NCBI RefSeq assembly: GCF_963668385.1 | Contig: NZ_OY764327.1 | Location: forward strand, 4,808,501-4,872,500 | DNA from: an uncultured Carboxylicivirga sp. | GTDB lineage: Bacteria > Bacteroidota > Bacteroidia > Bacteroidales > Marinilabiliaceae | Reading direction: 5' to 3' | Length of the DNA: 64,000 nucleotides | In this document: piece after piece, positions 54,264 through 59,011 of the stretch | Position numbering within the stretch: position 1 is the stretch's first letter | How the letters are laid out: each line of letters begins with the position of its first letter | Program-made: the position numbers and the translations under genes | The notes under the pieces: model-generated | Databases searched by the model: none | Told to the model about the DNA's origin: nothing | What the model saw: the letters and a program-made list of their open reading frames with translations, nothing else

Positions 54264-55052
54264 ATGAACTACTATAACTCAAAAGAAATCGTATCGGTTG
54301 TAAATAATATAGCCGAAGCAAAAACCAAAACATCAGCCATCAATACCATTGTATTAGCTATTCTTGCCGGTGGATACATCGCCATGGGAGGATTGCTTGC
54401 CGTAGTTGTAGGTGGAGGACTTCCCGGATTGGAAGCCAGTAATCCCGGAATTCAGAAATTCTTGTTTGGAGCCGTTTTCCCATTAGGACTGATTTTGGTT
54501 GCCATTGCCGGTGCCGACTTATTTACCGGTAACACTGCGTATTTTATACCGTCGTGGTTTCAGGGAAAAACCAAATTTCAATCCATATTAAAAAACTGGT
54601 CAATTGTGTATTTAGGTAATTTCATAGGCTCAATTATTGTTGCTCTATGTTTTGCTTACCTGACTGATTTATTCGCTAAAGATCCCTGGTTAGAAAGTAT
54701 AAGAGGCATTGCCGAAGCAAAAACAGCTAATCCGTTTTACAAAGCCTTTTTAAAAGGAATTGCCTGTAATTGGATGGTTGCATTAGCCATGTGGTTATCA
54801 TATGGAGCTAAAGATATTTCAGGTAAGATATTAGGTATCTGGTTCCCTGTTATGGCCTTTGTAGCCATGGGTTTTGAACACTCGGTAGCTAATATGTTCT
54901 TTATTCCTACAGCAATATTTTATGGTGCTGATGTAACCTGGACAAGCTTTGTGGTTAATAACTTGATTCCGGTAACACTGGGCAATATTGTGGGAGGAGC
55001 CCTTTTTGTGGGTGCAGCCTACTGGTTTGTCTACGAACGCAACAATTCTTAA
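54264..55052 (+). CDS. focA: Formate/nitrite channel FocA
   Basis: 262 residues with six membrane helices of the FNT fold. It moves formate out (or in) when PFL works. Seen: AGGYIAMGGLLAVVVGGGLPG, LFTGNTAYFIP (Omega-loop region, TGN conserved), KGIACNWMVALAMW with the CNW helix break, GFEHSVANMFFIPTA with the pore His. Slightly shorter than E. coli FocA (285). E. coli order is focA-pflB-pflA; here focA is last. ATG at 54264. Ends at a strong hairpin, after which the REP cluster begins. Confidence 0.95.
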   Translation: MNYYNSKEIVSVVNNIAEAKTKTSAINTIVLAILAGGYIAMGGLLAVVVGGGLPGLEASNPGIQKFLFGAVFPLGLILVAIAGADLFTGNTAYFIPSWFQGKTKFQSILKNWSIVYLGNFIGSIIVALCFAYLTDLFAKDPWLESIRGIAEAKTANPFYKAFLKGIACNWMVALAMWLSYGAKDISGKILGIWFPVMAFVAMGFEHSVANMFFIPTAIFYGADVTWTSFVVNNLIPVTLGNIVGGALFVGAAYWFVYERNNS

Positions 55053-55077
55053 ACTTCCATATAGTCGAATGACTGTT

Positions 55078-55114
55078 GAAAACCGGAGATACAAATCTTC
55101 GGTTTTCTTGTTTT
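55078..55114 (+). terminator. Terminator of the pfl operon
   Basis: Thirteen-bp stem GAAAACCGGAGAT/ATCTTCGGTTTTC (55078-55090 and 55095-55107) with one G-T pair and an ACAA loop, then TTGTTTT. It is the border of the REP cluster. Confidence 0.85.
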
Positions 55115-55120
55115 ATAGGT

Positions 55121-55139
55121 ACGACTCCGCTGGAGTCGT
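55121..55139. repeat. REP-like hairpin R1, class ACGACTCC-n3-GGAGTCGT
   Basis: Eight-bp perfect arms (55121-55128 and 55132-55139) around GCT, first of the cluster. Confidence 0.8.
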
Positions 55140-55169
55140 TTCTTAAATTACAACTTTTCTATAAATATG

Positions 55170-55186
55170 GAACTCCTCTGGAGTTC
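55170..55186. repeat. REP-like hairpin R2, class GAACTCC-n3-GGAGTTC
   Basis: Perfect 7-bp arms around TCT, preceded by CTATAAATATG. Confidence 0.8.
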
Positions 55187-55243
55187 AACTCAATAATTTC
55201 ACTTGAATTGAATCCCGATAATTCCAATCAATAAACAATTTAA

Positions 55244-55260
55244 TGATACCGGCGGTATCA
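55244..55260. repeat. REP-like hairpin R3, class TGATACC-n3-GGTATCA
   Basis: Perfect 7-bp arms around GGC, followed by CATATTTATAGAATAT, a tail shared with R4 and R7. Confidence 0.8.
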
Positions 55261-55409
55261 CATATTTATAGAATATCTAGCAAATCAAGGCCTAACTGCG
55301 TTAGAGCCCTTGACAACATCTTATTATCTTTATATAAACTGAGTTCAAGCAAAAACTTCCCTTTTATATAATCCAAAAAGAACCTCTATCCAATTTCTGC
55401 AGCATTTAT

Positions 55410-55426
55410 TGATGCCAGAGGCATCA
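55410..55426. repeat. REP-like hairpin R4, class TGATGCC-n3-GGCATCA
   Basis: Perfect 7-bp arms around AGA, followed by TATATTTATAGA. Confidence 0.8.
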
Positions 55427-55459
55427 TATATTTATAGAGGTCAATTATACCTTAAAACA

Positions 55460-55476
55460 CGACTCCAGCGGAGTCG
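55460..55476. repeat. REP-like hairpin R5, class CGACTCC-n3-GGAGTCG
   Basis: Perfect 7-bp arms around AGC, ending 6 nt before the transposase stop at 55482. Confidence 0.8.
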
Positions 55477-55481
55477 AATAT

Positions 55482-55946
55482 CTATTCACCATTCCAATCA
55501 AACAAATATTGATCATCATATTCAACGTTAAATAGCTTCAATAATTTCACGTATTCCTCTCTAAAACTACTCTTTTGATGATGTACTTTCTGATTCTCGA
55601 TATACTTGATCACTGAATCTAACTGTGATTGACCATACGAAAAAGCCCCAAAACCTTCCTGCCATTGAAATTTATATCTACAAAGACCTTTTTCTTTGAT
55701 AAACTCAGTTGACCATTTTTTTATTTCTCTTACCAGATCAGATAAACAGCAATTGGGTTTCATACCGATTAAAAAATGTATGTGATTGTAAGTTCCATTA
55801 ATGGATAGCATTTTCTGACTTTTTCCTTGCACTATACCAGTTATATATTTATATAATTCAGCTTCCCATTCAGGTTGAATGGCTGCCTCTCTGTTTTGTA
55901 TTGCAAAAACAACCTGAATGTAGATTTGGGTATAGGTGTTAGCCAT
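55482..55946 (-). mobile_element. Single-domain IS200-like Y1 (HUH) transposase, RAYT-type
   Basis: 154 residues. The Y1 transposase fold is shown by the metal-binding HIH motif (H55, H57 in NHIHFLIGM), WQEGFGAFSYGQSQLD, and the helix KYIENQKVHH with the likely nucleophile Y115. It cuts and joins single-stranded DNA at hairpins. No tnpB or other cargo and no other ORF in the element. Eight REP-like hairpins flank it, five beyond its stop and three beyond its start, within ~1 kb, as in REP-associated tyrosine transposases (RAYTs). ATG at 55944-55946. The same protein type is widespread in Bacteroidota. It is intact, so it could be active. Confidence 0.85.
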
Positions 55947-55975
55947 AGTAGATTAAATTTGGTGGTTTTATATTC

Positions 55976-55990
55976 AACTCCGCTGGAGTT
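55976..55990. repeat. REP-like hairpin R6, class AACTCC-n3-GGAGTT
   Basis: Six-bp arms around GCT, 30 nt upstream of the transposase start, same class as R2. Confidence 0.75.
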
Positions 55991-56068
55991 CAATTCCATA
56001 AATTTCCTGTTAATTAAAGATAATAATAAAGTCAGAATCCCATTAATTTCAATCGATAAACAATTTAT

Positions 56069-56085
56069 TGATACCGGAGGCATCA
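56069..56085. repeat. REP-like hairpin R7, class TGATACC-n3-GGCATCA
   Basis: Seven-bp arms with one mismatch around GGA, followed by the shared CATATTTATAGAATAT tail of R3. Confidence 0.75.
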
Positions 56086-56118
56086 CATATTTATAGAATA
56101 TTCTTCCTGTCCACACCC

Positions 56119-56135
56119 CGACTCCGTAAGAGTCG
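56119..56135. repeat. REP-like hairpin R8, class CGACTCC-n3-AGAGTCG
   Basis: CGACTC/GAGTCG arms with one extra mismatched pair, same class as R1 and R5. It is the last of the cluster. Confidence 0.7.
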
Positions 56136-56182
56136 AATCTCATTTATACTTTGTACTATAATGCATCATTGGCATGCCCAAC

Positions 56183-57151
56183 CTAATTGATCTTAAAATA
56201 CTCAACAGCATCCTTTATTGCCTCATCTATTGGGGTAAACTGTATATTTAATTCTTGTTTAGCTTTTTGGTTAGAATAATAATTTCTAACCGTTAACGCC
56301 TTAAGGTTCGAAAATGAAAGATCTGTCTGCACTCTAAAAAAGCGAAGTATATTCCCAATCAAACCGATCAACAACAATAAAAGATTAGGAATAGGAATTA
56401 ATGTTGTTTTTTGATGAGTCTGATTAATCAGTTTCGTATAAAACTCTTTATAACTCAGATTTTCATTAGCTAGAATGTATTTCTGACCTGATAATTTTAG
56501 ATCAAATGCCTTAACAATGGCCCGAGCCACATCTTTAACATGAATAAAGCATTTGCCGCCTGATGGATAAAAGACCCATCGCTTGTTAAGAGCCATCAAT
56601 ATTATTTTACCTGAACTGGGTTTGGTATCGTATGCTCCCAACATAAACGTTGGGCTGATGGTAGTCATATTCAAATGAGCTGATGCCTTATCAATGAGTT
56701 CCTGAGCCTGCTTCTTACTAATAGCATACAGCATGTTTGTATAAGGATACCGCATTGAACTATCTTCATCACCAGGTTCTTCTTTACTGCCATATCCATA
56801 TGTATTTGCAGATCCAACATACACAAGCTTTACTATTTCATTTTTAATACATGCATCAATTACATTTTTTGTCCCTTGTACATTGGTTGGATAATAATCA
56901 TCGAGCTTCAACAACGATTGTGAGGTATTGGCCGCAATATGAACTACAAAATGAAATTTTTTTATTTCATTAATCAGCAACTTGGTATTCAATAAATCTC
57001 CTTCAACCAGTGTCAGGTTGGTAAGATTTGGTGCTATAAAACTACTTCTATCTCGAACCAAAGCCTTAACAGCATAACCTTTATCCACCAACATCAATAC
57101 CAGGTTGGTACCCAATAAACCATTGGCTCCTGTTACAAAAACCTTCTTCAT
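56183..57151 (-). CDS. NAD-dependent epimerase/dehydratase, dihydroflavonol reductase-like
   Basis: 322 residues, extended SDR. GANGLLGTNL (8-17) is the NAD loop, HIAANTS marks the cofactor strand, and YAISKKQAQ gives the catalytic Tyr and Lys. Residues ~230-322 form the variable substrate domain. Family members reduce or epimerise sugars, steroids or aldehydes; the hydrophobic segment LLLLLIGLIGNILRFF (~258-273) could dip into the membrane. Substrate unknown. It is 11 nt downstream of the GDYxxLxY gene, so it is likely co-transcribed with that gene and the DUF2157 gene. Confidence 0.88.
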   Translation of the reverse strand: MKKVFVTGANGLLGTNLVLMLVDKGYAVKALVRDRSSFIAPNLTNLTLVEGDLLNTKLLINEIKKFHFVVHIAANTSQSLLKLDDYYPTNVQGTKNVIDACIKNEIVKLVYVGSANTYGYGSKEEPGDEDSSMRYPYTNMLYAISKKQAQELIDKASAHLNMTTISPTFMLGAYDTKPSSGKIILMALNKRWVFYPSGGKCFIHVKDVARAIVKAFDLKLSGQKYILANENLSYKEFYTKLINQTHQKTTLIPIPNLLLLLIGLIGNILRFFRVQTDLSFSNLKALTVRNYYSNQKAKQELNIQFTPIDEAIKDAVEYFKIN

Positions 57152-57162
57152 TTATAGCTTAG

Positions 57163-57735
57163 CTAATTATTCTCCTCAGGTTTCAGTTCGCGCACCGAAA
57201 CATCATCAATAAATACATCCTTAACCACTGCCTCGCCATCTTTAACACTTACCAAGGCATACGATATCTTGCTGGTATCGCGTTGAGCTTGCCAATGAGC
57301 TTCCTCCGCTCCTTTTGCCTTGGATTCCTCCATATAAAAACGGTCAAAATCGTAATCAATACGAATTGATGTTGTATCATTCCAAAACCGATTTCCGATT
57401 GTGGCCTTCACATAAGGTTGATCATTGGTGGTTACTTCTCTCGCTACTGAGGCTATCCTGGCAAATCCATCCTCATCATTACTGAAATACACAAAAACCT
57501 TATCTCCTTTGCTCCATTGTTCTATGCTGTCTTTTTTGATGGTACTTTCATCATAATCCAACACTATATACTTTCCTCTGAATGGATCATTTGGGTCGAT
57601 TGGTGCTGTTTTTAGTTTTATTTCAGTACCCTCTTTTAAAATTGCTTCTCTGTCCCAAATCATTTTATAAGGCACAAATAATTGCGCCAATGCAACCACA
57701 ACAAAAAGGGTCAATAGTATACTTTTCTTATTCAT
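57163..57735 (-). CDS. GDYxxLxY-type membrane-anchored protein
   Basis: 190 residues. One N-terminal membrane helix (KKSILLTLFVVVALAQLFVPYKMI), then a beta-rich periplasmic part. DPNDPFRGKYIVLDYDES (~47-64) is a variant of the GDYxxLxY motif, with GK in place of GD. Such proteins are encoded next to DUF2157/DUF4401 membrane proteins. Start ATG (57733-57735) overlaps the DUF2157 stop by 8 nt, showing tight coupling. Function unknown. Confidence 0.82.
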   Translation of the reverse strand: MNKKSILLTLFVVVALAQLFVPYKMIWDREAILKEGTEIKLKTAPIDPNDPFRGKYIVLDYDESTIKKDSIEQWSKGDKVFVYFSNDEDGFARIASVAREVTTNDQPYVKATIGNRFWNDTTSIRIDYDFDRFYMEESKAKGAEEAHWQAQRDTSKISYALVSVKDGEAVVKDVFIDDVSVRELKPEENN

Positions 57736-59011
57736 CAGATTTCCTTTTTTTCAGCATTACATAATTGAATACAAAAAAGCCCACACCCACTAGCACAAAC
57801 AAAACACCTCGTAATACAAAGCTTATTTTTGAATCGAAAAAACGACAAACCACCAATGCTGTAATAATTAGCAATCCATAATTTAATATGCCTAAATGAT
57901 TTTTTCTGGCTCCCTGAAGTATGGTTAAAACACCTAAGCTCAAAACAAATAAATTAATCAGGATGATTGCTGCCGATGAATTTAAACCGATAATATAAGT
58001 GGGTATAAACAATAGAAATATCAACCCGAAAGGATTTATTTTATCAAACTTCCATTCTTTTTTGCGATAGAATAATAACACGGAAGCTAACACGATTAAA
58101 ACTACGGCTGATAGAAACTCGGCCGATCGTACCAGTTCATTCAAATTATCCTCCGTTTGCCTTAAATGATCCCAAAACCAGCTAAAGCTTAACATCAACA
58201 ACACTATTATGGTTCCTAAAGATCCTATTATTTTATAGCCATTACTAAAGGTTCGTTGTTTCGAAAAGAATTCTTTTTCTCCTATCAGACTTAATATGCC
58301 AAACAATGCCATATAAGCTACATACATTAACTCATCGAATTTACCAGCCAACGTACCCAATGTAATCACCAGCGATAGCGGCATCAACCAATTATGAAAA
58401 ACCATAAAATTACTCCGAGGTTTATTCTTGTATAACAGATAATAATGAGGAAGCATCAATAGTAACAACACCCAATACATATACGATTCGGATGACGGAT
58501 ATGTCCAATAGCTGGCTTGTGTAGCATAATAGGTAATGCCAACCAAACAAAGCAATGAAGTAACCGATGATTTCATCAGGTAGATAAGCGGAATACACAG
58601 CAGCATCCATGTAAGCAAAAACGAACTTAAATTACCCGGAATATTGTATATCTGACTCACCAGCGAAATGCTTGCTCCGACACCAAAAAATAAGAAAGCA
58701 CTCACACTCTCACGCCAGGCAATGCTTTCGTTCTTTTTTACAATAACCCATCCGTTTAAAAATTGGCCAATAATCAATGGTAGAAAGGCTAATAAAGTTT
58801 TTGTTGTTCTCGAAAGCTCATCCCAGTTATGAGCAATTATGAGGATAATACCAAGACCAACCAATATGGCTCCTAAAATGCCAAATACAACAAACAATTT
58901 ATTGGTTGGCGAACCTTTCTTGCTTTTATAGTAATCCAAAATCCGATCTGCTGTTTCCTGGTTTATAACACCGTCTTGCAGCAACTCTGGTATTTCTTTT
59001 AATATACTCAT
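57728..59011 (-). CDS. DUF2157 polytopic membrane protein
   Basis: 427 residues, about ten to eleven membrane helices after a soluble N-terminal ~45 residues (helical, KEIPELLQDGVINQETADRILDYYKSKKG) that matches the DUF2157 start. Family function is not established. Coupled by an 8-nt overlap to the GDYxxLxY protein and then to the epimerase, forming a three-gene minus-strand set. ATG at 59009-59011; its upstream region is shared with the Nudix gene. Confidence 0.85.
   Translation of the reverse strand: MSILKEIPELLQDGVINQETADRILDYYKSKKGSPTNKLFVVFGILGAILVGLGIILIIAHNWDELSRTTKTLLAFLPLIIGQFLNGWVIVKKNESIAWRESVSAFLFFGVGASISLVSQIYNIPGNLSSFLLTWMLLCIPLIYLMKSSVTSLLCLVGITYYATQASYWTYPSSESYMYWVLLLLMLPHYYLLYKNKPRSNFMVFHNWLMPLSLVITLGTLAGKFDELMYVAYMALFGILSLIGEKEFFSKQRTFSNGYKIIGSLGTIIVLLMLSFSWFWDHLRQTEDNLNELVRSAEFLSAVVLIVLASVLLFYRKKEWKFDKINPFGLIFLLFIPTYIIGLNSSAAIILINLFVLSLGVLTILQGARKNHLGILNYGLLIITALVVCRFFDSKISFVLRGVLFVLVGVGFFVFNYVMLKKRKSDE

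Follow-up and report, generated by a model that had tools for sequence, protein, structure and literature searches.

The DNA analysed here, called the window below, is a stretch of 64,000 nucleotides from an uncultured Carboxylicivirga sp. (contig NZ_OY764327.1, positions 4,808,501 to 4,872,500), in which a tnpA-like gene for a Y1 transposase of the HUH type lies between two clusters of short hairpins. We consider it probable, at roughly two chances in three, that gene and hairpins form a single-strand recombination system similar to the REPtrons of repetitive extragenic palindromes (REPs), in which a vertically kept, single-copy enzyme from the IS200 branch of the Y1 family acts on a composite unit. 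The unit consists of two different hairpins, HA and HB, with a TATAG box between them. Its recurrence together with related genes in other Bacteroidota suggests a REP-like repeat system with a kind of enzyme that was not tied to such repeats before.

The enzyme

The preliminary description of the locus had recognized a lone HUH/Y1 transposase of 154 residues with HIH at 55-57 and Y115, which was borne out by a match to Y1_Tnp (PF01797, E 1.3e-23) and by the catalytic residues H55-I56-H57 and Y115. The same description called the enzyme a REP-associated tyrosine transposase (RAYT), a label that we reject because of its Y---Q--HH motif and the failed RAYT model. Residue 115 starts the motif YIENQKVHH, i.e. 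Y---Q--HH, a form present in all 41 enzyme loci examined, and not the Y---NP of formal RAYTs. The curated RAYT model NF047646 gave no match to the enzyme at E up to 0.01, whereas the NCBIfam IS200 model was passed with 59.4 bits against a cut-off of 55. Formal RAYT membership is excluded by this combination of motif and protein model. The genome encodes three further Y1 proteins, which have the Y---NP form and all pass NF047646. The window enzyme shares Y---Q--HH, a WQ motif, a length of about 150 residues and a low copy number with TnpA subclass 1.2, and placed by motif it is a member of this subclass on the IS200 branch. No relative was found among PDB sequences at E up to 0.01.

The enzyme gave a single match in the complete one-contig genome of 6.27 Mb. 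A relative from the same genus (G006, enzyme locus L118) holds the gene at the same place, with values of 96% for the formate transporter, 81% for the enzyme, 80% for the gene at 57728-59011 and 75% for the GDYXXLXY gene. Comparison with this ortholog yielded a dN/dS of about 0.10 (Nei-Gojobori, dS 0.97), most other enzyme pairs being saturated; judged by these substitutions, the enzyme is under purifying selection, as expected of a kept gene.

The composite unit

Eight hairpins between 55121 and 56135 stand on the two sides of the gene, as had been described, and a single gene flanked by inverted palindromic repeats is an arrangement typical of REPtrons. The statement that all hairpins follow the plan CC-N3-GG agrees with the five perfect ones but is slightly too strong for the others, as H6 is perfect over 6 bp (55976-55990) with a mismatched foot, H7 has one mismatch and H8 carries AGAGTC instead of GGAGTC. 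Exact CC-N3-GG hairpins with arms of at least 6 occur six times in the window, all within one 870-bp stretch, compared with a random expectation of 0.45 on average and 2 at most (60 first-order Markov runs). On both strands, all eight hairpins lack a GTAG or GTGG foot on their 5' side when read by eye, and Rfam gave no match at E up to 0.1 between 54000 and 57500.

In the unit, HA (7 bp, 3-nt loop) is followed after 1 nt by the box, AT[AG]T[TC]TATAG in most copies, and after about 20 nt by HB (7 bp, 3-nt loop), with a start-to-start pitch from HA to HB of 48-55 nt in 31 aligned units. The window contains three such units and a half unit (Table 1), with TGATACC/TGATGCC (HA1) or GAACTCC (HA2) as HA stems and CGACTCC as HB stem. 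A covariance model of the unit, R1, which was built with units that include some from seven of the nine loci made up of the window and L118-L125 (not L120, L121), gave four matches in the window at E up to 0.001, all of them at the enzyme locus. More than one stem is thus present, as the preliminary description had it, but the three arm classes are better read as the positions HA1, HA2 and HB of one composite unit than as separate repeat families. The tail ATATTTATAGA, described for the TGATACC/TGATGCC class, does occur there but also beside the GAACTCC hairpin H2 on the other strand (55158-55168).

H6 looks like a fusion of the HA2 5' arm with the HB 3' arm, since in comparison with the orthologous locus L118 its 5' arm equals HA2, its 3' arm equals HB but for one base, and the middle is missing. 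A similar fusion, TATCCCC-AGC-GGAGTTG, is found near 2,346 kb of the genome (L055). Inverted pairs of units are common, in the form HB-box'-HA1 ... HA2-box-HB in the genus of the window and as HA-box-HB-box'-HA in the genome G032; the latter arrangement was found in 21 of the 38 named unit-bearing loci described below (37 HB-sharing pairs).

In 10 of 14 pairs the stems had changed on both sides, a figure that is inflated by the choice of units for pairing, so that only the stem variety counts. The invariance of TATAG in the unit alignment is likewise partly circular, units having been picked by that box. A scan independent of the box, covering 169 hairpins from 35 named loci of the enzyme clade, returned TATAG as the most enriched 5-mer after hairpins, present in 60 of 337 hairpin flanks versus a background of 2.2%, and 56 of these 60 occurrences were at +6 or +7. 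In Carboxylicivirga sediminis (G009, loci L121/L229), the enzyme gene lies within an array of hairpins with 4-nt loops and a pitch of 52 nt, many of them followed by a TTAATAG-like box, an arrangement that may be the unit simplified to one hairpin.

Association of gene and unit across Bacteroidota

The unit stands beside the gene in each of the eight relatives with an identity of about 60% or higher (L118-L125). The stems in L118, where seven hairpins flank the gene, are those of the window, and the stems in L119-L125 are largely their own. The idea of a Bacteroidota REPtron with mixed hairpins holds in so far as relatives conserve a REPtron-like array with more than one stem around a single Y1 enzyme, but not in the assignment of that enzyme to the RAYTs.

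Enzyme matches at E up to 0.001 were present in 43 of 60 genomes, the window genome included. Among 80 named loci, L229 was set aside as matching G009, and 38 of the remaining 79 contained a unit (at about E 0.001 or better), the nearest in each lying at most 313 bp from the gene. Within 400 bp of the gene were 100 of the 147 R1 matches at named loci, a density of 1.62 per kb compared with 0.13 per kb beyond 1 kb. Hairpins of any kind followed the same trend, with 2.09 per kb within 700 bp of enzyme-group genes versus 0.43 beyond 1.2 kb (41 loci), and 2.92 per kb within 500 bp versus 0.53 beyond 1 kb when all 80 loci were taken; 49 of the 80 had two or more hairpins and 31 had fewer than two.

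In a FastTree phylogeny of 116 proteins, the clade of the window enzyme (SH support 99) comprised 44 rows, 41 of them with the unit, and at two of the three exceptions, L231 and L256, a contig end lies close to the gene on one side. When the window and L118-L125 were excluded, 32 of 35 named rows inside the clade had the unit compared with 3 of the 40 scored rows outside it, and 32/35 is the independent figure because seven of these nine loci had supplied units to R1. Rows counted as unit-bearing if the fetched locus contained a unit at any place with E up to about 0.001; L229 was omitted from the tree, as were four rows containing in-frame stops (L249, L265 and L269, which have the unit, and L304). 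The 32 unnamed loci L126-L157, also outside the clade, were unscored in the tree, and a separate R1 scan gave weak matches beside the gene at L126 (E 0.005) and L127 (E 3.5e-5) and one farther off at L134 (E 0.009).

Gene and unit also occur together at the level of whole genomes. In 218 evenly drawn Bacteroidota genomes, 67 had the protein (E up to 1e-30), at least 38 the unit (E up to 0.001) and at least 31 both. With the window genome left out (217 genomes), the unit was found in 30 of 66 genomes with the gene and in 7 of 151 without it (Fisher p 2.3e-12, a value that overstates independence, as the genomes are related). All genome counts of units are lower bounds, resting on 79 scored first-look candidates per genome in the set of 60 and on 21 in the set of 218.

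Proposed mechanism

By homology with IS608 and TnpAREP, the enzyme would bind the HA and HB hairpins on single-stranded DNA, e.g. at replication forks. Tyr115 might then cut at the TATAG box or close to it, at a point 6-7 nt beyond HA (on its 3' side) and about 20 nt before HB (on its 5' side), and rejoining of the strands could copy, invert or delete units. As a cut site, TATAG is the strongest candidate, since it does not vary and keeps a fixed distance while the stems change. We take the spacing of HA, box and HB to be that of a junction between the right and left ends of IS200-type elements, and the distance from hairpin to box presumably resembles that at IS200/IS605 ends.

More tentatively, and at slightly less than even odds, REP-type systems may have arisen a second time, on the IS200 side of the Y1 family, with a phylum-wide Bacteroidota clade of subclass 1.2 maintaining a two-hairpin, TATAG-boxed unit whose stems change freely, and with units captured and spread by miniature inverted-repeat transposable elements (MITEs).

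Dispersed units and alternative explanations

At least 24 of the 60 genomes contain an R1 unit, with counts of at least 44 in the window genome (three of them listed at the enzyme locus), 59 in G032, 28 in G011, 26 in G009 and 22 in G034. In G032, all 25 units read have CGACTCC as HB, and their HA stems are mostly TCATCCC-like or GGATGCC/TGATGCC-like, as at the transposase locus of that genome. Four units read on one other contig of G007 have the stems of its enzyme locus. Among 13 units read in G034, five with TGATGCC and three with ACACTCC are close to those of its locus and the others have TAACTTC or TATCCCC; HB is CGACTCC in only part of them. The dispersed units of the window genome have mainly CAACTTC or TATCCCC/TATCTCC stems, combined with CAACTCC, CAATCCC or CAACCTC (36 units read).

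Several observations weigh against the proposed system. In the window genome, a genome-wide pattern and R1 search found no units with the stems of the enzyme locus beyond that locus: all three sites of the TGATRCC hairpin are local, and both CGACTCC and TGATRCC are missing from all 36 dispersed units read. All four units found in G006 are local as well. Fifteen copies of the unit in the genus are framed by 18-bp terminal inverted repeats 225-237 bp apart, and of the 151 genomes that lack the gene at the threshold used, seven carry units, two of them 15 or more. The recurrence of hairpins beyond the locus, whose lack would have spoken against the preliminary description by its own terms, gives a mixed picture, with units that have other stems and a lone GAACTCC hairpin at 4,951,434, which has one-mismatch copies at 5,762,797 and 5,763,315; none of the three has an R1 match. 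The core ACTCC-N3-GGAGT has 43 sites in the window genome, four of them local, and CGACTCC is present at none of the 39 others. The seven genomes with units and no close enzyme at the threshold are G168 (at least 15 matches), G175 (at least 16), G137, G081, G239, G261 and G094, and their units are possibly orphan repeats.

The locus might be an ordinary IS200-type insertion sequence with its own subterminal hairpins flanking the gene, the clusters being nested or decayed insertions. The score above the cut-off of the NCBIfam IS200 model is in line with this, as is the order HB-gene-HA between two boxes on one strand, which is like that of IS200 ends. We regard this explanation as unlikely and rejected a typical IS200 element as the principal interpretation, since the single copy in a complete genome, the shared position in G006 and the purifying selection count against it, and so do eight flanking hairpins in the window and seven in L118, together with units in many places away from the gene.

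Equally unlikely, in our judgement, is that the units are mere neighbours of the enzyme, MITE repeats that have no connection with it and lie there by chance or target preference, although part of the dispersed units do lie in MITE-like elements and their spread is therefore not creditable to the Y1 enzyme. The framed copies are flanked by direct repeats of about 8 bp, true flank pairs agreeing at 6.67 of 8 positions on average versus 4.65 when re-paired (0 of 3000 permutations as high); two pairs among the 15 copies look orthologous by their flanks, so that these are not 15 independent events. Of 19 end pairs initially considered, four were dropped before this test (a 257-bp pair without unit in L056 and, in L070, L215 and L220, pairings that were second ones or too long), and L211 was retained despite its decayed right end, with a score of 3/8. 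Given the terminal and direct repeats, the framed copies were probably moved by a DDE-type transposase. A 237-bp element at 3,108 kb of the window genome is absent from the same place in G001 and G006, and an earlier reading of this difference as movement of a unit by the Y1 enzyme was withdrawn in view of the terminal and direct repeats. When the other 13 genomes of the genus were searched for the site of a second dispersed unit, the unit itself was matched but no site orthologous to it was found. For the MITE ends, a pattern search in the window genome returned 24 matches compared with 7 in the control; terminal inverted repeats exceeded the null on both sides at only 6 of 29 places in this genome (one end at one more), at none of 11 places in G032 and at neither of the two window places checked. 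The enrichment beside the gene across the phylum, the match with one clade and the co-occurrence in genomes also argue for the proposed link of enzyme and unit rather than for independent MITE repeats.

Finally, it is improbable that the main role of the hairpins is to terminate transcription of neighbouring genes or to stabilise their mRNA. Units are mostly intergenic (3 of the 36 dispersed units read overlap an open reading frame (ORF) of at least 100 aa), and 10 terminator-like sites were found in 54900-56400 compared with 0.6 in shuffled sequences, seven of them being unit hairpins with T-rich tails. These tails are, however, mixed A/T (e.g. CATATTTATA) and not clean T runs, Rfam gave no match, and the formate transporter appears to have its own terminator in a 13-bp stem at 55078-55107; the fixed-distance box and the link to one transposase clade would be left unexplained. 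The same hairpins could bring about termination as a secondary effect.

Features of the locus and other repeats of the genome

The features of the enzyme locus are compiled in Table 1. An ORF of 100 aa at 55841-56143 overlaps hairpins, has no Pfam match and was taken as spurious. Between the hairpin cluster and the GDYXXLXY gene, the window has a gene for an NAD-dependent epimerase (56183-57151), for which there was no match in the fetched stretch of G006 (L118).

Table 1. Transposase gene, hairpins and boxes at the enzyme locus (window positions).
Feature	Position	Strand	Remarks
tnpA-like gene, Y1 HUH transposase, 154 aa	55482..55946	minus	H55, H57, Y115; Y---Q--HH
H1, HB hairpin	55121..55139	minus	CGACTCC stem; unit 55117-55191
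Box ATATTTATAGA	55158..55168	minus	of unit 55117-55191
H2, HA2 hairpin	55170..55186	minus	GAACTCC stem
H3, HA1 hairpin (TGATACC)	55244..55260	plus	box 55262-55272; half unit, no clear HB; R1 match 55239-55319, E 5.6e-5
H4, HA1 hairpin (TGATGCC)	55410..55426	plus	box 55428-55438
H5, HB hairpin (CGACTCC)	55460..55476	plus	unit 55405-55481, adjoins stop codon
H6	55975..55991	minus	GAACTCC-AGC-GGAGTTG on gene strand
H7, HA1 hairpin	56069..56085	plus	one mismatch; box 56087-56097
H8, imperfect HB hairpin	56119..56135	plus	unit 56064-56140

Elsewhere in the genome, a long array of units (L068, 5684500-5693000) flanks the gene of an anaerobic ribonucleotide reductase (NRDD, Pfam) and a gene for a small 4Fe-4S protein, with several copies spaced about 245 or 462 bp. 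Arrays of TAACTCCGGAGGAGTT hairpins, mostly followed by AATATTAATAGC, are present with six copies at 2639-2641 kb (L056) and five at 3689-3690 kb (L059); R1 matches them weakly (24-33 bits), and they are perhaps a related or a different repeat family. The other three Y1 genes of the genome (L072, 854000-856700; L073, 3980000-3982500; L074, 534500-537000) each have their own, different hairpins nearby, which at L074 are CGAAGT and GGTAGT hairpins in mirror order on both sides of the gene. No R1 match was obtained beside any of the three.

Comparison with known systems

Bacteroidetes tnpA genes of subclass 2.6 in the classification of Quentin et al. (2018; PMC6006769) share with the window locus the phylum and non-GTAG hairpins beside the gene, but they encode Y---NP enzymes, in contrast to the Y---Q--HH enzyme of the window. 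Elements of the IS200/IS605 family such as IS608 and ISDra2 (PMC6006769) likewise combine a HUH Y1 enzyme with short hairpins. They differ from the present locus, where no gene-bearing copy multiplies, several hairpins stand on each side and the gene occupies one place in two species.

Close parallels are found in the REPtrons of REP/RAYT systems with their bacterial interspersed mosaic elements (BIMEs) and REPINs (PMC2817692, PMC8266576). Common to both are a single Y1 gene with flanking inverted palindromic repeats, stem changes that keep the pairing, composite inverted arrays and dispersed copies in some genomes. Unlike those systems, the window locus lacks a 5' GTAG/GTGG foot, has a class-1 enzyme, and its unit combines two different hairpins with an AT-rich TATAG box 3' of one of them.

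TnpA-Y1 subclass 1.2 is characterized in PMC6006769 by about 150 aa, Y---Q--HH, a WQ motif, low copy number and occurrence in Bacteroidetes, all as in the window enzyme. Table 1 of that paper enters 'no' under REPs for this subclass; the REP search described there was directed at tnpAREP-like genes and relied on a GT[AG]G foot, some subclasses being inspected manually. In one clade here, by contrast, most members have a specific two-hairpin unit at their flanks. In the open-access literature, with subscription journals mostly uncovered, we found no paper in which such a unit is connected with subclass 1.2 or with an IS200-branch enzyme of Bacteroidota. The unit gives subclass 1.2 a concrete and conserved candidate DNA substrate, for which the 2018 classification (PMC6006769) names none. 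It also separates what a REP system may need, a Y1 enzyme and hairpins, from supposedly typical traits such as a class 2 enzyme and a GTAG foot, and the natural pairs of enzyme and stems across many genera would make the rules of recognition readable by comparison. REPtron-like systems as such are already known; what is new, as far as our search reached, is the combination of this enzyme branch with the box and with a two-hairpin unit that has three stem positions.
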